From: an uncultured Rhodospirillales bacterium
Lineage (GTDB): Bacteria; Pseudomonadota; Alphaproteobacteria; Azospirillales; Azospirillaceae
NCBI GenBank assembly: GCA_903927615.1
Contig: CAIYNU010000100.1
Coordinates: 1 to 63,408 of the forward strand
DNA length: 63,408 bases
Reading direction: 5' to 3'
Made by a program: the position numbers and the translations under genes. Shown here piece by piece: positions 52,147 to 63,070 of the stretch; the stretch's first letter is position 1; each line of letters starts with the position of its first letter. The notes beneath the pieces were generated by a model. It ran no database searches. It saw only the letters and a list, made by a program, of their open reading frames with translations, and was not told the DNA's origin.

Positions 52147-52611
52147 ATGGATAACGGACTCGCAACCGACTTGCCGCATCCCTGGCTGCGTCATTATCCC
52201 GCCGACGTGGACTGGTGCGCAGATTTGCCCGCCCGACCCATGGGCGCGCTGTTCGACGAGGCGGTGGCGCGATTTGGCGACCGGCCGTTTCTCGACTTCA
52301 TGGACAAACGCACCACCTACCGCGAGGTGGCCCGACAGGTGGATCACCTGGCCTGTGGCCTGCAACGGTTGGGCGTCGGCAAGGGCGTCTCGGTCGGGCT
52401 GTTCCTGCCCAACACGCCCTATTACGTCATCGCCTTTTACGCGGTGCTGAAGACCGGCGCGACCGTGGTCAACTTCAACCCGCTCTATGCCGAGCGCGAG
52501 GTGGCCCACCAGATCGATGACAGCGGCACCGAGATCATGATCACCCTCGATCTGGCGGTGGTCTACGACAAGCTCGGTCGTTTGCTGGGGCAGAGCCGTC
52601 TCCGGCGTATC
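52147..52611 (+). pseudogene. Acyl-CoA ligase, N-terminal fragment cut at the contig join
   Basis: The first ~155 residues of a long-chain-fatty-acid-CoA ligase (family length ~550): GALFDEAVARFGDRPFLDF, FLPNTPYYVIAFYAVLKTGA, NPLYAEREVAHQI. It reads normally to about QSRLRRI, then becomes an Arg-rich, unrelated sequence. The missing ~75% of the protein, including the ATP-binding core, is absent because the DNA changes source at this point. Treat as partial rather than as an evolved pseudogene. Confidence 0.85.
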
Positions 52612-52612
52612 T
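52590..52612. other. Apparent join between two unrelated genomes
   Basis: The acyl-CoA ligase frame holds until about 52,608-52,611, while the M20 peptidase frame is recognisable from about 52,608 (PAYLVSPTSAPAQ). The gene families, codon habits and neighbours differ on each side. No repeat, integrase, tRNA or IS end is present at the join, which favours an assembly chimera over a transfer event. Confidence 0.75.
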
Positions 52613-52874
52613 GGTCTCGCCGACGAGCGCGCCGGCGCAGGCGGCGCTGCGGGCGCTGGAACAGGCGTTTCACGCCAAGCCGATTCTCATGCGCGAGGGC
52701 GGCTCGATTCCCATCGTGAACGAATTCAAGAAAGTCCTCGACGCGGACACGCTGCTGCTCGGCATCGGGCTGCCGGACGACAACGCGCATTCGCCGAACG
52801 AGAAGTTTAATCTGGATTGCTTCGAGAACGGCCAGCGGATGAGCGCATTCCTGTGGCAGGAGCTGGCGCGTTAA
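52612..52874 (+). pseudogene. M20 family peptidase/dipeptidase, C-terminal fragment
   Basis: The last ~88 residues of an M20 metallopeptidase: LMREGGSIPIVNEFKKVL and GLPDDNAHSPNEKFNL, where the histidine in NAHSPNE is a conserved zinc ligand. Family members are about 450 aa, so about 80% is missing at the 5' side, lost at the join. The stop is at 52872-52874, 12 bp before the convergent YhbY-like gene. Confidence 0.85.
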
Positions 52875-52886
52875 AGCGCGGCTGCG

Positions 52887-59775: not shown

Positions 59776-60375
59776 TTACTCCGGCAGGTTGAGCAGTTGG
59801 ACGCCGGTGAGCGCGGGCGCGTTCCGGCCCATGTCGGCGCGCACTTTCTTGACGTCGTCGGCGGTGACGGGGCCGGCCTGGTTGCCCCAGGAGGTGCGGA
59901 TGTAGGTCAGCACGGCGGCCACGTCTTCGTCCGGCAACGCCGCGCCCATCGCGGCCATCGAAAGGCTCCAGTCCTTGCCGCAAACTTTGATCGGCCCGTT
60001 GAGGCCGGCGAGCGGGATGTGGGCGAGGCGGCTGACGCCTTTGCAAATCACCATCTCGGAGGCGGCCAACGGCGGCGCCTGTCCGGGTTTGCCCAGTCCG
60101 TCCGCGCCGTGGCAGATGCCGCAGACGCTGTCATAAACAAATTTGCCCCGCGCGATCCGCTGCGTTTCACCGGATTGCGGTTGGAAGGAGTTGAGCTTCT
60201 CGGCATTGGCGTAAGGGGCGTAAACTTTGGCGTTGAACCAGCCGCTGTGCTGGTCAAAGTAATAGCCGCCGAGAAACAGCAGCAACAGCGTGACGACGAT
60301 AATCCACATCGGCGCGGCGGAACGCGGGGCGGCGGATTCGGTGACGGTCGGGGCGGCGGGATTCTCGGCGCTCAT
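59776..60375 (-). CDS. CcoP-like membrane-anchored cytochrome c
   Basis: A 199-aa protein with one N-terminal membrane helix (~22-40) and a single heme c domain with CGICH (Cys85-His89). The tail SMAAMGAALPDEDVAAVLTYIR contains the axial Met region. It resembles the C-terminal cytochrome of CcoP but has only one heme where canonical CcoP has two. It begins at 60375 directly after the CcoO-like stop and is the last gene of the operon. Its role is probably to pass electrons to or from the subunit-I complex on the periplasmic side. Confidence 0.85.
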   Translation of the reverse strand: MSAENPAAPTVTESAAPRSAAPMWIIVVTLLLLFLGGYYFDQHSGWFNAKVYAPYANAEKLNSFQPQSGETQRIARGKFVYDSVCGICHGADGLGKPGQAPPLAASEMVICKGVSRLAHIPLAGLNGPIKVCGKDWSLSMAAMGAALPDEDVAAVLTYIRTSWGNQAGPVTADDVKKVRADMGRNAPALTGVQLLNLPE

Positions 60376-61257
60376 TTACTTGGCAAGAGTGACGGGGGTA
60401 AACGGCGCTTCGTAAAGCGGCACGTTGGCCTTGAGGCTCAAAAGATAGGCGGCCAGCTCTTTGGCCTCGGGCTTGGGCACGACTTCAAAACCGGCGGCGG
60501 GCGCAAACGCGCCGGCGAGCTTCAAGGCGTCGGGCGACGGCGCGGCACCGACGGCGCGGACTTCAAACAGGAACTTGAAGGACGGCATGGTGGAATTAGG
60601 CGTGGTGGATTTCGGCGCGTAGAGATGCTGCCATTGCCAGTTGGCGTCGGGGGCGCGGACGCCGATGTTCGCGAGGTCGGGACCGGCGCGGAGGCTGCCG
60701 AGCTGGACGGGCGCGTCGTAAAGGTAATCCGCCGCGACGCTCTGCCGCGAACCCCAGCCGCGCGCGATGTCCGGCCCGGTGGCAATGATGCGGGTCTCGG
60801 TCTTCACGCCCACGGGCTTGAGATGATCGGCCAAGGCGGAGGCGACATCGCCGTCGTCGCCGCTGTAAAGCGTCTTGGGCAGTTCGCCGTTCCACTTGTC
60901 GAGGCTGCCGACGATGGAATTGGAACTGGTCGCCAAGTCCGGCACGACCATGAGCGATTTGATAAAGTCCTTGAAGTCGGCGGCCTTCTGCGTGCCGAGG
61001 CTGGTCAGGGTCACTTCAAAGGCCGCCCCGGTCTGGCGCACCTGTTCGGTGTGGCACGCGGCGCAGCCGTAGGCGCGATAAACCTGCAAGCCGAGCGTGG
61101 CCTCGCCGGTGCGCTGCTGCGGCCAGTTGTCGGCGGACTGGAGGATGACGGTCTGCTTCGCGCCGCCGAGCTGCAACATCGGCGCGAGGACGAAGCCGCA
61201 CCACGACGCGCCGAGCGCGATGAACGCCGCCATGAAAATACAGATGCCGGTTCTCAC
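60376..61257 (-). CDS. CcoO-like membrane cytochrome c
   Basis: A 293-aa protein, one N-terminal helix and a heme c site CAACH (Cys65-His69). The distal motif GPDLANIG and the axial Met in NSTMPSFKF correspond to CcoO of cbb3 oxidases. The start is a GTG at 61257 that overlaps the subunit-I stop (GTGA). In the chain it would pass electrons between the two cytochrome c subunits and subunit I. Confidence 0.85.
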   Translation of the reverse strand: MRTGICIFMAAFIALGASWCGFVLAPMLQLGGAKQTVILQSADNWPQQRTGEATLGLQVYRAYGCAACHTEQVRQTGAAFEVTLTSLGTQKAADFKDFIKSLMVVPDLATSSNSIVGSLDKWNGELPKTLYSGDDGDVASALADHLKPVGVKTETRIIATGPDIARGWGSRQSVAADYLYDAPVQLGSLRAGPDLANIGVRAPDANWQWQHLYAPKSTTPNSTMPSFKFLFEVRAVGAAPSPDALKLAGAFAPAAGFEVVPKPEAKELAAYLLSLKANVPLYEAPFTPVTLAK

Positions 61258-62705
61258 GATTTCACCTCCGTCGTTGCCGGTGTTTCCGACGCTTCGAGCG
61301 GCGACTTGATGTAGGCGATCACACACTTAATCACGCCGAGCTTCCACTGGATGGCCATGACGAGAAGGTTCGCGGCGAACAGCAGCGCGCCGAGCAGGAC
61401 GAGCAACTGGCCGGTGGTGCTGACGCGGAGAAATTTCAGCGCGACGGCGTTGGCATCGGCGAAGGCGGCACCGGAATGCAGCTTCATCCCCTGCTCCACT
61501 CCGGCAATGAGGAGCGGCACGACGAACAGCAGCACGCCAATCATGGTGATGAAGAAATGCGCCTTGGCAAATTTGGGGAACGGCAGCGGCTTGCCCATGA
61601 CTTGCGGCAGCAGTTCGTAAATCGCGCCAAAGAGAATCATCGCCGCGAAGCCGAGCAGTTGCAGTTGCGTCTGCGCAACGCCGAACCAGGTGAACTCCAG
61701 CACGCGGCTGTATTGCGGGCACGCGGCGGAGATGTAGAGAATTCCCGAAAGGATGAAGCTCATCATGCCGAACTTGACGAAGCAGAACGGCCCGCCTTTG
61801 CAGGACACGCACGCGCCACAGACGGTCTTGATGGTGATGATCAAAATCGCCAGCAGCGGAACAATCGTCAGCGCCGCCGCCGCGCTGCTCAACGCCGGCA
61901 GCCACGCGGGCACCGGCGCGCCGACGGGCACGCCGCACCAGGTTCCGAACAGGATCAGTGTGAGAAAAGCGAACTGCGCGTAGCCGGAATTGGCGAGCGC
62001 GCGGCCGGCGATCTTCGGCAGGAGATAGAACGCGATGCCGACGCCCACGAGCGCGAGCCAGACGAAGACGAGGTTGTTTGCAAACCACCAGCCGATGATG
62101 GATTGCACCACGCCGCGCGGAACTTTGTTGGAATTGAGAAAGAGATTCGCCGTCGAATAAATCCACGGGAACCAGAGCAGCGCCGCGAACATGAACCAAT
62201 GCGACGGATAAAGCGTGCGTTCCTTCCGCCAGCCGAACGTGGCCGCCGCCGAAACCGCGATGAGCATAAACGCCGCGAACAGCAGCACGGCAGCAGCGCG
62301 CGGAAATTCCAGCCACGGGTGGCCGGTGCTTTCGCCGAGCAAAATTCCGCCAAGGCCGACGAGCACGCCAAGATGCCAGAGGTTCGCCGCCACGACCGGA
62401 ACCAGCGGCAGCGCGAGCGGCATCTGGCTCAGGCGCGCAAAAATCCAGAGCATTACGCCGAGCGCGGCGGGGATGCAGAAGCCGTAGAGGATGGCGTCGT
62501 TCGCCGCCGGGGCCACGCGGCCGTAGGTGAGCAGCGGGCAGGCGGAGAGAAATTCCGGCGCGTGAAACTTGATGCCGGCGATGAGGCCGAGCACCAGGCC
62601 GACGACCAGCCACAGCGCCGCGCCGCCGAACAGCGCGAGCAGCGGCACGCGCAGCGAGGCGTCAATCTCGTTCGCGCAAGAGGATTTGTTCTCGGTCGGG
62701 TTCAT
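61254..62705 (-). CDS. CcoN-like heme-copper oxidase subunit I lacking the metal ligands
   Basis: A 483-aa membrane protein with about twelve helices. It aligns to CcoN of cbb3 oxidases by local motifs, including WW at 206-207 and AHFFITMIG late. The six histidines that bind the low-spin heme, CuB and heme b3 in CcoN are all replaced: Ala68 (RVAPAAND), Asn210 (WWFANN), Pro260-Val261 (WCGVPVGAP) and Gln345/Gln347 (VAQTQLQLLGF). A cysteine cluster CX2CX2CX5C (296-308) occupies a loop where CcoN has none. Two cytochrome c genes follow. Alignments were made by eye from remembered CcoN motifs; a structure-based check is needed. Confidence 0.8.
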   Translation of the reverse strand: MNPTENKSSCANEIDASLRVPLLALFGGAALWLVVGLVLGLIAGIKFHAPEFLSACPLLTYGRVAPAANDAILYGFCIPAALGVMLWIFARLSQMPLALPLVPVVAANLWHLGVLVGLGGILLGESTGHPWLEFPRAAAVLLFAAFMLIAVSAAATFGWRKERTLYPSHWFMFAALLWFPWIYSTANLFLNSNKVPRGVVQSIIGWWFANNLVFVWLALVGVGIAFYLLPKIAGRALANSGYAQFAFLTLILFGTWCGVPVGAPVPAWLPALSSAAAALTIVPLLAILIITIKTVCGACVSCKGGPFCFVKFGMMSFILSGILYISAACPQYSRVLEFTWFGVAQTQLQLLGFAAMILFGAIYELLPQVMGKPLPFPKFAKAHFFITMIGVLLFVVPLLIAGVEQGMKLHSGAAFADANAVALKFLRVSTTGQLLVLLGALLFAANLLVMAIQWKLGVIKCVIAYIKSPLEASETPATTEVKS

Positions 62706-63070
62706 TCAAAAGCACTGGGTTTTTCGGGAGCCTTCGGCAGTTCAGCGACGGCCTTTTCCTGGCGCGCGGTCAGTTCGGCGCGGGCGGCGGCGGGATTCTG
62801 CCACTGCTGCGCGGCAAGCTGTAGCGCGGTGTCAATCGGCAGCCGCACGACGCCATGCGGCTGGTCGAGCCACGCAGTCGTGGCCAAAGCTTTTTCCTCG
62901 GTCGCGCGCATTTCCGTCAAAGCCTTGGTGCGTTCGGCGGCGCGGTCTTCGTCAATCGCCGGAACACATAGCGTCAGTTTGATTGCGACGACGGCCGTGG
63001 CAAAAATGCCGCTGACAATAATCAGACCCAGCGCGGCGGCGGTGGCGCGGTTGGCGGTTTGGTAATTCAT
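62702..63070 (-). CDS. Small membrane-anchored protein of the oxidase operon
   Basis: A 122-aa protein with one N-terminal membrane helix (~12-32) followed by a helical domain. It contains TTAWLDQPHGVVRLPID, a motif seen in small periplasmic proteins encoded beside quinol:cytochrome c oxidoreductase genes in PVC and Bacteroidota lineages. It overlaps both neighbours by 4 bp. Role unknown; probably an assembly or accessory subunit. Confidence 0.7.
   Translation of the reverse strand: MNYQTANRATAAALGLIIVSGIFATAVVAIKLTLCVPAIDEDRAAERTKALTEMRATEEKALATTAWLDQPHGVVRLPIDTALQLAAQQWQNPAAARAELTARQEKAVAELPKAPEKPSAFE

Follow-up and report, generated by a model that had tools for sequence, protein, structure and literature searches.

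The window analysed here, a stretch of 63,408 nucleotides taken as a whole, ends in part of an alternative complex III (ACIII) operon whose C-type oxidase module contains a catalytic subunit, CcoN*, in which all six haem and CuB histidines and the active-site tyrosine are replaced. Judging from gene sequences, an ACIII-linked C-type module with a pseudoenzyme in place of its catalytic subunit is widespread in the Verrucomicrobiota that we sampled, and most of the ACIII-linked copies in our samples are degenerate (131 of 152 in an order sample and 58 of 88 in a phylum sample). We propose, with a probability of about 60%, that CcoN* is a pseudo-oxidase that serves as a membrane scaffold for the cytochromes c CcoO and CcoP, which would pass the electrons of ACIII to another acceptor. 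Haem-copper subunit I is the textbook catalytic core, and a large, selected family with no ligands, or too few of them, implies that the fold can persist for other reasons.

The product of ccoN* (Table 1) scored 122 bits against the Pfam model COX1 (cut-off 34.8) and was aligned by phmmer over residues 30-453 to the cbb3 CcoN of structure 3mk7 (E = 1.2e-22), with 108 bits for the NCBIfam ccoN model, far below its equivalog cut-off of 583. A preliminary description of this DNA had assigned the ligand places by eye and concluded that none of the six histidines is left. Both the phmmer alignment to 3mk7 and MAFFT alignments with intact relatives led to the same six places and to the same conclusion. 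The retention of the helices, also claimed there, agrees with an AlphaFold model computed from a 12-row alignment (pLDDT 79.8, pTM 0.84), which consists nearly entirely of helices, many of them long, and compares to 3mk7 with TM-scores of 0.83/0.86; HMM alignment and structure prediction, the checks that had been suggested, point to a CcoN-like protein by sequence and by predicted fold. Among the features of a C-type (cbb3) oxygen reductase, CcoN* has the fold, as predicted, and adjacent ccoO and ccoP genes, the latter with one CxxCH motif; it has neither the six histidines for haem b, haem b3 and CuB nor the tyrosine of helix VII (G254). The haem and FeB histidines of nitric oxide reductases, judged from the CcoN alignments, fall on the same places, which are empty. 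Since there are no ligands for haem b, haem b3 and CuB, CcoN* should not reduce O2 or NO, in line with the preliminary description, and we infer that O2 is not reduced at this subunit. Electron conduction through CcoN* itself, which had been suggested as an alternative role, is unlikely because the haem ligands are absent, and the conduit would instead be CcoO and CcoP. A search for a displaced conserved histidine in 190 degenerate CcoN proteins found none. The commonest histidine column of these proteins, that of window H48 (154 of 190), is also histidine in 26 of 28 intact proteins, so that no conserved histidine was gained and displaced ligands were ruled out.

Table 1. Features of the ACIII-linked module in the window, with codons at the former ligand places of CcoN*.
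Feature	Position	Strand	Basis
ccoN*, CcoN-like subunit I without haem/CuB ligands, 483 aa	61254..62705	-	open ORF
A68 codon, first low-spin haem His place (RLRPLHTNA)	62502..62504	-	phmmer and MAFFT alignments
N210 codon, first CuB His place (WWYGHN to WWFANN)	62076..62078	-	phmmer and MAFFT alignments
G254 codon, helix VII Tyr place	61944..61946	-	MAFFT alignments with intact relatives
P260-V261 codons, CuB His-His pair place (PHH)	61923..61928	-	phmmer and MAFFT
Q345-T346-Q347 codons, high-spin and second low-spin haem His place (GHVH)	61665..61673	-	phmmer and MAFFT
ccoO, FixO/CcoO-like monohaem cytochrome c, CxxCH and Met-Pro motif kept	60376..61257	-	PF02433, E 1.2e-19; start by homology
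ccoP, monohaem cytochrome c, hydrophobic N-terminal stretch	59776..60375	-	PF00034, E 3.1e-8
Small membrane-protein-like ORF, 122 aa, no family	62702..63070	-	between actF and ccoN* in 12 close relatives
actF (ACIII), C-terminal end, cut by contig end	63067..63408	-	81% identical to actF of locus L042

The window holds only the last four genes of the operon and the end of actF. In relatives, the operon consists of actABCDEF, a gene for a small protein (117-128 aa), ccoN* as the eighth gene, ccoO and ccoP, with the actABCDEF genes of ACIII identified in loci L042 and L043. The relatives' ActA has five CxxCH motifs, ActB has Fe-S domains, ActC is of the NrfD family (PF03916), ActD matches PF11821 (180 bits) and ActE has one CxxCH, while actF, without a Pfam match, was named by its place. 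This gene order is kept in all 12 close loci as far as their contigs reach, with no ccoP match in L044, and actF lies upstream in 38 of 40 further loci of the order, intact and degenerate alike; locus L131 starts inside the small gene, and L150 gave no act match, even at E 10, in the 1.2 kb upstream that reach to its contig end. In two subsets of the phylum sample, actF was found in 72 of 72 and 17 of 20 rows, with both states of CcoN behind act genes. Two intact members (L347 and L348) have no act operon and resemble ordinary CcoN, and a third (L357) lies on a 5.2 kb contig without act genes. The preliminary description had envisaged a new complex. The module does not stand alone, as that would suggest; it sits with CcoO and CcoP at the end of an ACIII operon, a context that had been overlooked, as had the chimeric nature of the contig.

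To the left of about 52.6 kb the window carries alphaproteobacterial-like genes with high GC3, among them a malic enzyme 66-68% identical to those of Shinella and Sinorhizobium (best six listed matches in a plasmid collection), and to the right it is verrucomicrobial, with maf, queG, ccoP, ccoO and ccoN* arranged from the junction onwards as in verrucomicrobial loci. At the junction (52580-52880), an AMP-binding domain breaks off after its first quarter and is continued by the C-terminal end of an M20 peptidase. We favour misassembly over transfer, without certainty, because of the two broken genes and a contig end. In 82 genomes of the order to which the bin is assigned, a search at 1e-40 returned the bin's own genome and two homologues only, both intact, and the ligandless gene is thus absent from the bin's taxonomic relatives at this threshold. 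The four COX1 matches in the bin speak for the bin and not for the true host of ccoN*; given the chimera, searches of the bin say nothing about a second CcoN in that host. Five loci from genomes related to the bin's host (L054-L058) encode intact CcoN-O-P homologues, with no act matches in the 14-16 kb covered at each. By eye, L056 and L058 have NnrS-like ORFs and L056 also has an NsrR-like regulator, which hints at NO chemistry for these neighbourhoods.

To see how far the ligandless state extends, we relied on genomes whose verrucomicrobial assignment comes from the titles of the 12 relatives' assemblies and from sampling within the order and phylum of genome G503. Among the named genomes scanned, these 12 relatives have best-segment identities of 56-81%; their assemblies are mostly titled Verrucomicrobia subdivision 3, Limisphaerales or Verrucomicrobia, and one is titled only 'bacterium'. 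The preliminary description had asked whether all homologues in PVC genomes lack the histidine set; all 12 are without it, save that in L045 the first CuB place falls inside a run of N and is unreadable. Matches at 1e-25 or better occurred in 270 of the 320 genomes of the order, from which we aligned 159 loci (12 close, 20, 40 and 60 further ones and 27 low scorers). After removal of 7 rows shorter than 400 aa, 152 remained, of which 21 have all six histidines and the tyrosine and 131 have 0-2 histidines (none in 96, one in 31, two in 4, and no protein with 3-5), proportions that describe the sample and not the order, since loci were picked mostly by score, best first. A phylum-wide search found matches in 90 of 387 genomes at 1e-30; the 88 loci absent from the order set, with four duplicate rows dropped, comprised 30 intact and 56 degenerate proteins and 2 with the low-spin haem pair only. 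The histidine count is thus bimodal, with 6 or 0-2 in the order sample and 6 or 0-3 in the phylum sample. The helix VII tyrosine follows the same division: it is found in none of the degenerate proteins (0 of 132 in the order, 0 of 58 in the phylum) and in all of the intact ones (28 of 28 and 30 of 30). The two proteins with a low-spin pair, L282 (genome G833) and L283 (G986), are ACIII-linked, have lost the ligands of the high-spin haem and CuB and read His-Asn-Gln-Arg-Tyr-His at the six places, a natural half-way form.

Loss of ligands on this scale raises the question of whether the gene is decaying, or whether assembly or frame errors have produced its appearance. The window's contig is indeed chimeric, some divergent rows have long branches and a few rows contain a stop within the match, but long open frames occur in many separate genomes, including on contigs of more than 2 Mb, and operon position and partners are kept down to about 30% identity. 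Pairs of ligandless genes gave a median dN/dS of 0.142 (n = 81 with dS < 2, highest value 0.544), intact pairs one of 0.112 (n = 105, highest 0.315), and ccoN* of the window compared with six near rows gave 0.10-0.24. These low values indicate that CcoN* is under purifying selection. We rejected decay on the dN/dS of about 0.14 and a sequencing or frame artefact on the agreement of many genomes, and regard explanations of this kind as very improbable.

The number of losses was estimated from three trees. In a tree of 104 sequences with the ligand columns removed, the ligandless proteins formed one clade (SH-aLRT 100), with the intact ACIII-linked form of the same order as its sister; a phylum-wide tree of 114 rows needed three changes, with a complete loss in L306 (genome G992) nested in an intact clade, apparently a separate event. 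Both trees were quick ones with long branches. A careful tree of 39 rows needed five changes, because the big degenerate group splits into three parts there. Rows shorter than 430 or 440 aa were left out of the trees, as were many ligandless rows. Forcing all ligandless rows of the 39-row tree into one clade was rejected (p-AU = 0.0039), and one clade without L306 and with the low-spin-pair rows added was not (p-AU = 0.39), in a test weakened by the fact that the groups were named after the first trees had been seen. Together, these trees support at least two independent losses and possibly four or five.

The partner cytochromes have been kept alongside the ligandless subunit, as the preliminary description had noted for the window, where both haem c motifs are present. 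At least two ORFs with CxxCH follow the ligandless gene in 80 of 81 order loci and 56 of 56 phylum loci with at least 2 kb downstream, and the intact gene in 18 of 18 order loci and 19 of 22 phylum loci. By tblastn in the ligandless order sample, CxxCH is present in 130 of 132 CcoO and in 123 of the 124 CcoP found, and the Met-Pro motif in 120 of 130 CcoO. A first count of CcoP in the phylum sample, taken from the best tblastn match, had missed the motif in 8 of the 56 ligandless loci and in 14 of the 28 intact ones, with two further intact loci without a match; given the frame-by-frame recount, these cases are probably a wrong-frame effect. An assembly factor for CcoO and CcoP or for ACIII, acting without being a stable subunit, would equally be a non-catalytic protein under selection and would share the same operon evidence, but nothing points to it specifically, and since the whole subunit fold has been kept next to CcoO and CcoP, a structural subunit is the better match; we hold such a factor to be quite unlikely.

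The residues lost, gained and kept bear on two further roles. In the first, CcoN* would bind another cofactor, such as a haem with other ligands, a quinone or a metal at cysteines, and would have a new redox role. The degenerate proteins have gained a cysteine at window C56 (62538-62540; 127 of 190, mostly aromatic or aliphatic in intact proteins) and a tyrosine at window Y61 (62523-62525; 155 of 190, phenylalanine in 28 of 28 and 28 of 30 intact proteins), both just before the former haem ligand place A68. Nothing else hints as strongly at a new function specific to the dead form as these gains, which are seen in alignments. Glutamine is frequent at two of the ligand places (71 and 63 of 132), and the low-spin haem pair in L282 and L283 suggests that a one-haem form may exist. 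On the other hand, five ligand places vary like ordinary columns, ranking between the 39th and the 69th percentile of all 473; at the sixth place most proteins have a gap, and the tyrosine place is glycine in 115 of 132. No cysteine occurs among the 40 most conserved columns of 132 degenerate proteins, a second one, C329, is not general (54 of 132) and, as noted above, no conserved histidine was gained, all of which makes a new cofactor doubtful. A cysteine-rich loop, C-x2-C-x2-C-x5-C, lies at residues 296-308 of CcoN* (window 61782-61820); of its cysteines, Cys302 and Cys308 hardly vary within the 12-row alignment, yet only 43 and 53 of 132 proteins of the order sample have them. In the second role, CcoN* would have been retained as a channel for protons or ions, and its old proton pathway would act as an added coupling or leak element of ACIII. 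Several polar or charged places of the intact proteins are still conserved in the 190 degenerate ones (Y74 in 171, R91 in 168, R160 in 178, Y227 in 166, K231 in 157 and Y363 in 169), and the many long helices of the model are compatible with a channel; these residues may, however, merely hold the fold or the contacts to CcoO and CcoP, and CcoN* has lost both the catalytic tyrosine and the redox centre needed to drive pumping, so that we regard a channel as unlikely.

We return to the scaffold as the preferred reading. In Verrucomicrobiota an ACIII operon carries a C-type (cbb3-like) oxidase module, ccoN-ccoO-ccoP. In large lineages the ligands for CuB and for both haems b have disappeared from its catalytic subunit, with the fold, the gene and the cytochrome c partners remaining under selection. 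CcoN* would then act as a transmembrane platform keeping CcoO and CcoP in place against ACIII, and electrons would run from menaquinol through the Fe-S centres of ActB, the haems of ActA and ActE to the haems c of CcoO and CcoP and on to a separate acceptor. This would most likely be an A-type (CuA) oxidase with its genes elsewhere, or else a different periplasmic carrier. Gene order and analogy with the ACIII-oxidase supercomplexes described in the literature (PMC5928083, PMC8552683) suggest both the physical link to ACIII and the route onward from CcoP. All 12 source-like genomes have an A-type coxA with at least three of the four histidine motif groups (the contig end truncates it in L070, and the match in G505 spans an in-frame stop). 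Seven of the 12 also encode a second protein, 592-727 aa long, in which three or four C-type motifs occur and which, by its length, is perhaps a CcoN-CcoO fusion. CuA-domain matches were found in 37 of the 39 ligandless genomes searched and in 17 of the 21 intact ones. A bypass is therefore available in both states, and because a CuA oxidase is nearly as common with intact CcoN, its presence does not explain the loss; we discarded it as a marker of the degenerate state. Against the scaffold it can be said that the gained C56 and Y61 are not predicted for a mere scaffold, and that CcoO and CcoP could have another partner.

The canonical CcoP has two CxxCH motifs, unlike that of the window locus, which has one. 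CcoN* resembles cbb3 CcoN (3mk7, 8smr) in fold, length, CcoO- and CcoP-like partners and 20-21% identity over the predicted structure, but it has neither the ligands for haem b, haem b3 and CuB nor the active-site tyrosine. NorB (4xyd, 3o0r) shares the superfamily fold (TM-scores of 0.75-0.83) and keeps its haem ligands, whereas CcoN* does not.

The adjacency of ACIII and a C-type oxidase is itself already published: one report, in its passage on this arrangement, places it only in verrucomicrobial methanotrophs and Opitutaceae (PMC8498564), and in Methylacidiphilum ACIII genes beside cbb3 genes have been linked to a high affinity for O2 (PMC6688271). These systems share neighbourhood, phylum and subunit types with ours, but the passages concerned describe a cbb3 oxidase and do not mention missing ligands (PMC8498564, PMC6688271). 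The arrangement is not shared by all Verrucomicrobiota: in Verruconatronum, act genes are reported to precede a caa3 oxidase (PMC13274419). ACIII is otherwise described as pairing with A-type oxidases by direct electron hand-over (PMC5928083, PMC8552683), and the ACIII-caa3 and ACIII-aa3 supercomplexes of Rhodothermus and Flavobacterium likewise tie an oxidase to ACIII, with cytochrome c domains passing the electrons; there, however, the oxidase is A-type and active, whereas here it is a C-type module with a catalytic subunit that appears dead (PMC5928083, PMC8552683). We found no prior report of the ligand loss in our searches of open-access papers, and an earlier notice may exist in subscription papers, which fell mostly outside this search. 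Our findings suggest that, in a large verrucomicrobial group, an enzyme of respiration has become a membrane component without catalytic activity. We think it probable that within one phylum the oxidase was repeatedly converted into a non-catalytic subunit of ACIII, which, once a quinol oxidase that included its own terminal oxidase, would now be wired as a quinol:cytochrome c exporter whose cytochrome arm derives from cbb3, and that many 'cbb3 oxidase' genes of Verrucomicrobiota, perhaps including those of the methanotrophs, cannot reduce O2. This would bear on how ACIII hands over its electrons and advises caution where O2 affinity has been inferred from cbb3 genes beside ACIII (PMC6688271); the degenerate family also makes the non-catalytic roles of CcoN testable.

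Several loci depart from the common pattern. Genome G638 has two ACIII operons (L139 and L140), each with its own CcoN without most ligands, and in L048 the operon is followed by ctaA-like and ctaB-like genes, recognised by eye, and coxA (PF00115). The best ccoP match lies before ccoN, and not after ccoO, in 8 of 72 phylum rows (L321, L323-L325, L327, L333, L339 and L341), which reflects either a rearranged operon or an extra cytochrome. In the CcoO of many ligandless order members, a long insert separates CxxCH from the RGWG segment (window 60376-61257; L042:11443-12237), and the spacing from CxxCH to the Met-Pro motif is longer (median 155 versus 85). We do not take this greater length to mark the dead form, because the spacing is short in other ligandless members and across the phylum sample, and 88 of 255 loci did not follow the pattern. 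Finally, genome G1085 (L344), the only one with pmoA-type genes among 38 searched, has two of them together with an ACIII-adjacent CcoN that reads A, D, A, H, Q and T at the ligand places, with five of six histidines replaced and no tyrosine.
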